Part shown: positions 35,218 to 37,138 of the stretch, piece after piece | Layout of the letters: each line of letters begins with the position of its first letter | Position numbering within the stretch: the first letter of the stretch is position 1 | Assembly (NCBI GenBank): GCA_009664345.1 | Contig: CP043547.1 | Coordinates: 1,426,001 to 1,490,000 of the forward strand | Length of the DNA stretch: 64,000 nucleotides | Direction of reading: 5' to 3' | Source: Planctomycetales bacterium 10988 | Lineage (GTDB): Bacteria; Planctomycetota; Planctomycetia; Pirellulales; Pb10988 | Position numbers and translations under genes: made by a program | The notes under the pieces: model-generated | What the model was told of the DNA's origin: nothing | Seen by the model: only the letters and a program-made list of their open reading frames with translations | Databases searched by the model: none

Positions 35218-35928
35218 GTGATTGCTACAGATACACGAAAAGTGAAAGAGATTCTCCCAAAAGTAAAAGTTGAAGAGGATGCAGAATCTCTTTATCAAGA
35301 AGACTCTGGAGATACTTTTTGGGGTGGGTTCCAATATGTAATTGGAGGGATTATTGTTCTCCTGATGACCCTTGGAATCGGAACCTTTGTCGCCATGATC
35401 ATCATTGATGACGGCGGAGGCTTAGATAATCTATTTGGCTTTATCTGTTTCGGAATCTTCGGGATTATCATGCTGGGGGTCGGATGTTGGCTCCTTTCTA
35501 CAGGAATCTACAATACCAGGGTTGCTATCAAATTGACTCCAGGGCGTATTTATTTTAAAGAGTGGCCCTTGAAGCAAAATGACATCTTTGAATTTACTTA
35601 CCGTCGACGGGCAAAAGTTCCGCTTCATCTGTCAGGGTTGACAGCGAAAATTATCTGTAAAGAAGTTGCAACGTATCAACAGGGAACCAACACACGAACC
35701 GTAACGGAGAAAATTTACGAGCAAGAATTGGAACGTGTTGAACACCACAGCCGTGAAGACTTTATCAGCCATACTTGGGTGTGGAACATACCCCCGGACG
35801 CCCCGATTTCTTTGTCGGTCTATCGAAATGAAATTCAATGGTCGCTTGTTGTCGGAGTAGAATTTCTAGATTTCTTAAATGACACTTCTGAATTTACTTT
35901 ATTACTCAATCCAGAAAGAGTTCAATAA
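35218..35928 (+). CDS. Two-TM protein with a soluble beta-rich domain, unknown
   Basis: I do not recognise the family. GTG start at 35218 with GAGG just upstream; 236 residues. Acidic N-terminus (about 1-35), then two hydrophobic helices (about 38-62 and 72-98) joined by an acidic loop (DDGGGLDN), then a soluble C-terminal domain (about 100-236) with alternating short beta-like stretches such as RVAIKLTPGRIYFKEWPL, AKVPLHLSGLTAKIICKEVA, HTWVWNIPPDAPISLSVYRNEIQWSLVVGVEF. This pattern resembles an arrestin-like sandwich (an extracytoplasmic or cytoplasmic side cannot be decided). Two further small genes follow on the same strand and may form a unit. Confidence 0.6.
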   Translation: MIATDTRKVKEILPKVKVEEDAESLYQEDSGDTFWGGFQYVIGGIIVLLMTLGIGTFVAMIIIDDGGGLDNLFGFICFGIFGIIMLGVGCWLLSTGIYNTRVAIKLTPGRIYFKEWPLKQNDIFEFTYRRRAKVPLHLSGLTAKIICKEVATYQQGTNTRTVTEKIYEQELERVEHHSREDFISHTWVWNIPPDAPISLSVYRNEIQWSLVVGVEFLDFLNDTSEFTLLLNPERVQ

Positions 35929-35987
35929 AAGGTCAAACACAAATTTCAGTCAATCGGAACTATTATTTCTGACTCAATACAACATCA

Positions 35988-36067
35988 GAACCAGTGGTCA
36001 AAACCTCTTCAGCATCGGGTGCCCAATTGGAAAAGGTAACTCCAAATTTACTTTTGACCACAAATAC
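35988..36067. repeat. MITE-like inverted-end element, 80 bp
   Basis: GAACCAGTGGTCAAAAC at the left and ...CTTTTGACCACAAATAC at the right share a 10-bp inverted core, GTGGTCAAAA, at 35994-36003 and 36052-36061. Size and end sequence match the element at 27665-27743, but the last outer bases on the right and the target duplication are not conserved. It lies in the 169-bp gap between the two-TM protein and the next small gene. Confidence 0.5.
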
Positions 36068-36097
36068 GAAGAAATCCATATTGGAATAAAATAAAAG

Positions 36098-36469
36098 ATG
36101 ATTGAATTTCAAATTGAGAATGACACAACGGAACCTCTAGGAAAAATCCACGGCAGAGTCACTTGGACTCCCGAAAAAGAGGTTACTCCGAAGGCTTTGA
36201 TTGTTAGTTTAATGTGGCGAACGGAAGGCCGGGGAAGTGAAGCCAAAGACACCGTGGCTGAAGTCCGACAAACGCCAGGCCCTGTCTTTGCGGGTGACCC
36301 TTTTGAAATGGAATTCGAATTCGAAATTCCTGAAGAAGGTCCTGTAACCTACAATGGAAAGTTAATCCGTGTCATTTGGGAAGTTCATTTTCGAGCCGAT
36401 ATTCCTTGGGCCTGGGATGTAACGGATGCCACCCTGATCACGGTTGAACCTCGACTCGTTGCTAGATAA
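36098..36469 (+). CDS. Small beta-rich protein (arrestin-like), unknown
   Basis: A 123-residue protein with no signal or membrane helix. The pattern of hydrophobic alternation (IHGRVTWTPEKEVTPKALIVSLMWRTEGRGSEAKDTVAEV, FAGDPFEMEFEFEIPEEGPVTYNGKLIRVIWEVHFRADIPWAWDV) resembles an arrestin/Spo0M-type N-terminal domain, in which a beta-sandwich binds a partner. It may be a paralogue or partner of the C-terminal domain of the protein encoded just upstream (35218-35928). The ATPase gene follows after 42 bp. Confidence 0.55.
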   Translation: MIEFQIENDTTEPLGKIHGRVTWTPEKEVTPKALIVSLMWRTEGRGSEAKDTVAEVRQTPGPVFAGDPFEMEFEFEIPEEGPVTYNGKLIRVIWEVHFRADIPWAWDVTDATLITVEPRLVAR

Positions 36470-36511
36470 TTCTTTCAATATAATTTCATCTATCTTATAA
36501 AGTTTCTACCT

Positions 36512-37138
36512 ATGAAAGACCCTTATCAACAAATGGGAATAAAACGCAATCCTTTTGTTGTTAAGGAAACGCCAGGGGTTCCCCAACCGCTTTGGATGGA
36601 TCGTCATCAGCCGAATCATCCGTTGCCAAACCAATGTCAATATTTTCAAATCTTAGGCAGTCGCGGGGTTGGAAAAACTTCCATTCTCTTTCATTGGAAA
36701 GAGGAACAGCCGGGTCCCTATCATTATGTTGCGGAAGACTTCACCCGTTGGCAGTTGCCGCCCTTTCACCCGATTGTTTACTGGGACGAAATCGACCGTT
36801 GGGCATGGTGGTATCGGGCACTTATTTTTTTCATTGGAAGGTTAAAAAAAATTACTATTGTTGCCGCGACACATCGAGATTTTTCTACTCTATCCAAATG
36901 GCTTGGTTTTGAGGTGAGACAAGTTACCTTTCAGCCTTTGACTCCCGAAGAATTAATGGAATGGGCCGAGTTGCGTATTCAAGCAGCACGTCTCAATGAA
37001 GAGATCGCTACGAATCTACACTTAACACAAGTAAAAGCGGAGGAAATAGCAGCTAAAGCGGGGGATTCTTTACGGTTCGCGGCGGATTTATTACACATTT
37101 GGGCCGCGGAAGAAGCCGCAAAAGAAAGTAGAAAATAA
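36512..37138 (+). CDS. Small P-loop ATPase, unknown function
   Basis: A 208-residue P-loop NTPase. Walker A GSRGVGKTSI (about 50-59), Walker B PIVYWDEIDRWAWW (about 86-99), then TIVAATHRDF (about 117-126, sensor-like) and a C-terminal helical region (about 145-205, LTPEELMEWAELRIQAARL, AEEIAAKAGDSLRFAADLLHIWAAEEA). It is much shorter than typical AAA+ or STAND ATPases and I cannot place it in a named family. Position right after two small genes suggests a shared role, perhaps as a switch that acts on the beta-rich proteins. Confidence 0.6.
   Translation: MKDPYQQMGIKRNPFVVKETPGVPQPLWMDRHQPNHPLPNQCQYFQILGSRGVGKTSILFHWKEEQPGPYHYVAEDFTRWQLPPFHPIVYWDEIDRWAWWYRALIFFIGRLKKITIVAATHRDFSTLSKWLGFEVRQVTFQPLTPEELMEWAELRIQAARLNEEIATNLHLTQVKAEEIAAKAGDSLRFAADLLHIWAAEEAAKESRK

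Follow-up and report, generated by a model that had tools for sequence, protein, structure and literature searches.

A conserved gene trio of planctomycete bacteria encodes predicted membrane-tethered arrestin-type lobes and an AAA+ ATPase

The DNA analysed here, which we call the window, is a 64,000-nt stretch of Planctomycetales bacterium 10988 (GCA_009664345.1, CP043547.1 positions 1,426,001-1,490,000, forward strand). It contains three plus-strand open reading frames, A, B and C, separated by gaps of 169 bp (A-B) and 42 bp (B-C) (Table 1). A first-pass annotation, made from the letters alone, had placed three genes at these coordinates with these gaps, and a re-check of the open reading frames returned the same picture. 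The two hydrophobic helices and following beta-rich domain that it described in A are visible in a hydrophobicity scan, and the Walker A and Walker B motifs that it read in C are both present. All three are real genes: homologues of each are found, side by side, in relatives.

Table 1. Features of the A-B-C locus, in window coordinates.
Feature	Position	Strand	Details
Gene A: N-terminal tail, two-helix membrane hairpin, predicted arrestin-type lobe	35218..35928	+	236 aa, GTG start
A, membrane helices (about residues 45-63 and 75-93) with acidic loop between	35350..35496	+	hydrophobicity scan
A, predicted arrestin-type lobe, second-lobe position	35509..35925	+	alignments A3 and A5; fused-homologue model and fold search
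MITE-like element between A and B, 78 bp	35987..36064	.	perfect 10-bp terminal inverted repeats GTGGTCAAAA/TTTTGACCAC
Gene B: predicted single soluble arrestin-type lobe, first-lobe position	36098..36469	+	123 aa; Pfam, alignment A2
Gene C: single-domain AAA+ ATPase	36512..37138	+	208 aa
C, Walker A GSRGVGKTS, residues 49-57	36656..36682	+	G52, G54 and K55 invariant in alignment A1
C, Walker B VYWDEID, residues 89-95	36776..36796	+	D92 invariant in family
C, H121, sensor-1 strand (AATHRD)	36872..36874	+	invariant in family
C, R188, sensor-2 position of lid helix	37073..37075	+	family motif GNLREALFDLYD; nearly invariant

Gene A of the window is the short form of its family. Most relatives carry an A of 430-450 aa that has an extra N-terminal DUF3592 and four membrane helices. 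DUF3592 was found in 37 of 47 long A members, and four helices were predicted in 38 of 39, with DUF3592 between helices 1 and 2; the domain is absent from window A and from homologues in which B, a hairpin and A form one chain (B-hairpin-A fusions). The lobe of A keeps the family motifs CKEVATYQQGTNTRT and IPPDAPISL..N.IQW (alignments A3 and A5). In Pfam, window A gave only a sub-threshold membrane-domain match and none to Arrestin_N or Arrestin_C. Lysine and arginine are denser in the stretch ahead of helix 1 and in the loop joining helices 2 and 3 of long A than in its other loops, and in window A the inter-helix loop is acidic (-3) while the stretch past helix 2 is basic (+2). This charge bias is a modest fit to a topology in which the arrestin lobes would be cytoplasmic and DUF3592 extracytoplasmic.

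Gene B falls just short of two arrestin-clan families in Pfam, scoring 22.2 bits against Spo0M (1.2e-4; cut-off 23) and 21.7 bits against Arrestin_N (2.1e-4; cut-off 24.9). Compared profile to profile, the A and B alignments give a weak match (probability 16.5, E 0.0015), so a fold shared by the two rests on structure and on the arrestin matches of both.

Structure models were made for window C and for a fused B-hairpin-A homologue, L123, that holds both lobes in one protein. The L123 model (mean pLDDT 93.6, pTM 0.84) consists of a beta-sandwich, two long helices and a second beta-sandwich. In the PDB its residues 1-345 match retromer Vps26 chains with a Foldseek E of 3.9e-16, and VIA superposes it on Vps26 with Z 17.4 at an rmsd of 6.4 over 252 residues, which makes the fit of lobe placement only loose. 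That whole-chain match exceeds any single-lobe match (Z <=15.0), and arrestins come next. Taken alone, the B part matches the N-lobe of ARRDC3 (4r7x) with Z 15.0 and the A part matches it (4r7v) with Z 14.5; Spo0M aligns to one L123 lobe with Z 14.9 at 2.5 Å over 123 residues. Pfam scores of the fusions run parallel: L123 passes Arrestin_N (40.5 against a cut-off of 24.9 bits), L125 passes both Arrestin_N (65.3) and Arrestin_C (32 against 27.7), and L123 reaches 22.7 bits for Spo0M, below the cut-off of 23. Both lobes of L123 are thus predicted to be arrestin-type beta-sandwiches. Window A and B would reach the same fold through alignment with L123 (identity 20% and 31%), with family motifs kept. 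The first-pass annotation had looked to arrestin-like sandwiches and to a kinship between A and B; in the modelled fused homologue both beta domains have the arrestin fold, and each lobe by itself matches the same ARRDC3 lobe.

Three known protein groups help to place the predicted adaptor. Vps26, the arrestin-fold subunit of retromer and retriever, is the best fold match to the B-hairpin-A fusion over both lobes, and its role as a membrane-associated adaptor serves as our working analogy; it differs in being one soluble chain, whereas here the lobes usually lie in two genes, one of them with a membrane hairpin, beside a partner AAA+ ATPase. Alpha- and beta-arrestins resemble the two-lobed fusion model in fold (Z about 14-15), and fused homologues score above the Arrestin_N cut-off, with L125 and L112 above that of Arrestin_C as well, but the arrestins are soluble eukaryotic proteins without a hairpin between the lobes and without a dedicated ATPase. 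Spo0M, an arrestin-clan protein of bacteria and archaea, is the closest bacterial relative by Pfam and lobe match, although the scores stay under its 23-bit cut-off. To our knowledge Spo0M is a soluble single chain with neither a membrane hairpin nor an ATPase partner. It is the only prokaryotic member of the clan described in the paper that we found (PMC2515105).

Gene C reads as an AAA+ ATPase by its Walker A and Walker B motifs, sensor 1, the sensor-2 arginine of the lid and its predicted fold. The window C model (pLDDT 83.1) has a five-strand AAA+ core and a helical lid, and it best matches ORC/Cdc6 and RFC proteins, among them Drosophila ORC/Cdc6 at Z 14.0 and 2.8 Å over 195 residues. Its family is marked by NPF near the N-terminus, GPHGSGKST, VVDGYEQL, TAH and GNLREALFxLYDxYE, with P14, G52, G54, K55, D92 and H121 (window numbering) invariant throughout. 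C resembles Orc/Cdc6/RFC/Hda-type AAA+ proteins and STAND NTPases in its AAA+ core, helical lid, Walker A and B motifs, sensor-1 histidine and lid arginine. Unlike them it consists of a bare AAA+ module of ~200 aa that lacks winged helix, collar and repeat domains, and it sits in an operon with membrane arrestins.

Window C is strongly diverged. Against Pfam it gave weak AAA matches only, and single-sequence searches with it returned no relative outside its own genome. We found the C family by taking the open reading frame after B in 60 fetched loci, where a Walker ATPase stood almost everywhere. A profile of these downstream ATPases detects window C with E 0.0048, and 3.6e-6 after one iteration; the same-type profile scores it at 1.5e-29 once it includes C itself. 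Since the profile recovers the family, the failed single-sequence search reflects divergence, not absence.

The trio is conserved across the window's order. Homologues of both A and B were recovered from 55 of the order's 57 genomes, spread over ~20 families, and the A and B matches adjoin; these matches came from single-sequence search with E up to 1, followed by profile confirmation in 60 loci. Profile-detected C relatives lie directly downstream of B on the same strand in most order loci. Within 3 kb of B and on its strand, A is present at 56 of 60 B loci, C at 50 and both at 46. Many A-B and B-C pairs in these loci overlap by 4 bp, which suggests translational coupling. Where C does not adjoin A-B, it is generally elsewhere: profile search found it so in all five genomes at least 88% complete whose A-B has no adjoining C (G004, G013, G022, G042 and G049), while in G008 it stands beside the other copy, and it was not found in two incomplete assemblies (83% and 73%). 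In G029 and G048, which have neither A nor B, a fragment of C begins at the very edge of a contig (base 3 or 6), and an assembly gap probably accounts for what is missing.

A tree of C separates three subtypes. Type I is the common one and goes with a long A carrying DUF3592 and a Walker B of the form DGxE. Type II, formed by the window and two loci of family f9, has a short A and a DE Walker B; in type III, C precedes a B-A fusion gene. The end branch of window C is very long (4.45), so its exact place in the tree is unsure. Gene layout in the closest f9 loci is A-A-B-C, and searches with A, B and C found no type I copy in the window's genome.

Conservation extends to distant parts of the phylum. 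Scanning named genomes with the closer rows of the B alignment gave 122 relatives, of which we kept the 80 in planctomycete or unassigned bacterial records; the full trio is present at 65 of these loci, and several of the misses are contig ends. One of the trio carriers is a strain in culture, Rubripirellula obstinata CECT 8602 (L210). Across 294 phylum genomes, B occurs in 33, a strong C in 27 and both in 26 (hypergeometric p 9e-30, kinship ignored). Seven B-positive genomes have no C at the strict threshold, and the one C without B (G332) is a partial match in a fragmented assembly. Phylum matches to the C profile that are weaker than an E of about 1e-9 resemble ordinary P-loop proteins, and the counts leave them out. 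Two layouts recur, A-B-C or C followed by a single B-hairpin-A gene, and natural fusions exist in both part orders, as A-B (L061, L122) and as B-hairpin-A (L056, L058, L123-L129). In genus g44, C is kept but unlinked.

We conclude that A-B-C is one conserved, undescribed unit across planctomycete bacteria. The first-pass annotation had proposed a three-gene cluster, and the three do adjoin in dozens of genomes, which span ~20 families of the order as well as distant families of the phylum. It had also known of no named system with this trio, and we too met no description in the literature or curated families searched. No NCBIfam family names window A, B or C, or their relatives above cut-off. 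Literature searches on arrestins and planctomycetes, DUF3592 and bacterial arrestins, which covered few subscription journals and preprints, gave no account of the trio.

The surroundings of the unit hold several further elements. A MITE-like element had been placed in the A-B gap, and its inverted repeats together with 40 further matches in the genome (about 73-92% identity) bear this out; the copies compared have common ends, AGAGCCAGTGGTCAAAACC...TTTACTTTTGACCACAAA. The element is intergenic and interrupts neither A nor B. A fourth gene often lies 3' of C on the same strand (34 genes by 51 C) and encodes a predicted secreted Tyr/Pro/Cys-rich protein (L082:8422-9300, L064:4529-5635, L062:4075-5070 and about 30 more). 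These proteins have repeated VPxTxYRPV-like motifs and match no Pfam family. Upstream of A, in divergent orientation, a PQQ-type beta-propeller gene is found in up to 26 order loci (e.g. L069:4041-5405 and L086:4379-5800). Neither the secreted proteins nor the propeller neighbours gave a functional lead.

Related genes also occur apart from the standard arrangement. The window's own genome has a second, diverged B-hairpin-A-like gene of 462 aa (L112:6146-7534; C1 near 2803277), which scores above the Pfam Arrestin_N and Arrestin_C cut-offs and has no ATPase beside it. A distant planctomycete (G121, L126:2342-5567) carries two tandem B-hairpin-A arrestin genes whose C-terminal extensions resemble those of L056 and L125. 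In G080, an unlinked C adjoins an MBL-fold hydrolase-like gene, which offers no clear hint.

Combining fold, topology and linkage, we propose, with a probability of roughly 0.55, that the trio forms a membrane-tethered, two-lobed arrestin/Vps26-like adaptor built from A and B and switched by C as its dedicated AAA+ ATPase. The A lobe would be held by its helical hairpin at the membrane face that we take to be cytoplasmic, and B would supply the other lobe in trans, giving a bilobal arrestin shape; that the two make one adaptor is suggested by the natural fusions that join them in one chain. In most relatives, an A with extracytoplasmic DUF3592 would let the adaptor span the membrane. From linkage and co-retention, we infer that the ATPase acts on the A-B pair at the membrane. 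C would bind ATP through its Orc/Cdc6/RFC-type module and most likely toggle the adaptor, either between a bound and a free state or between an open and a closed one. The adaptor might thereby capture, then release, the cytoplasmic part of some membrane client, a cycle of client binding and reset by C that is modelled on what Vps26 and arrestins do.

The main rival to a client-sorting adaptor is a transmembrane signalling switch, in which the DUF3592 of long A senses the state of the envelope, the arrestin lobes relay it and C serves as a STAND/NACHT-like ATP switch that passes the signal on. We regard this as possible and hold it tentatively. In its favour, the Walker B of the common C is of the NACHT kind (VVDGYEQL, D-G-x-E), C relatives match Pfam AAA_16, AAA_22, NACHT and nSTAND5 (NACHT and nSTAND over the NTPase core only), and 37 of 47 long A members have DUF3592, which is placed between helices 1 and 2 of the four. 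Against such a switch, window A and the B-hairpin-A fusions do without DUF3592, and the Walker B of window C is of the classical DE type. The hallmarks of STAND/NACHT proteins, C-terminal sensor repeats and an N-terminal effector domain, are absent from the 208-aa C.

C might instead be only co-transcribed with a stable A-B membrane scaffold and have another job, for example one linked to DNA. Its nearest folds are indeed replication AAA+ proteins, the NCBIfam Hda model weakly matches relatives, several genomes carry C at a separate site, and no convincing fusion joins it to A or B. Yet C almost never occurs without B (26 of 27 genomes have both), and it is again the neighbour when the gene order changes to C before B-A, which chance would not predict; we consider mere co-transcription improbable. 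A DNA-replication role for C, drawn from its Orc/Hda fold, was rejected, as it leaves the tie to A and B unexplained. STAND-like ATPases are common in defence, and one homologue matches PADLOC mad8 (1.5e-7), which could point to an anti-phage or other accessory module. That match is confined to 77 residues of the ATPase, PADLOC has no match for window A, B or C, and the unit is not patchy in its distribution but near-universal throughout an order. Given this distribution and the PADLOC result, we set defence aside as highly improbable.

Most of what is known about arrestin-type adaptors comes from eukaryotes, where they are central to membrane traffic and receptor signalling. An arrestin that is split, tethered to the membrane and paired with its own AAA+ ATPase, and that is near-universal in a bacterial order, would be a core machine without a name, and its function is directly testable. 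The membrane-coat-like proteins of planctomycetes have another fold combination, beta-propeller with alpha-helical repeats (PMC2799638). The unit is relevant to the origin of arrestin-type adaptors and to the unusual planctomycete membranes (PMC2799638). A broader and rather doubtful extension of the adaptor reading is that the retromer/arrestin principle has a bacterial counterpart in Planctomycetota: a two-lobed adaptor, anchored in the membrane, would select membrane proteins as clients and be loaded and recycled by an AAA+ ATPase of its own. If true, this counterpart would belong to a group in which membrane-coat-like proteins have been noted before.
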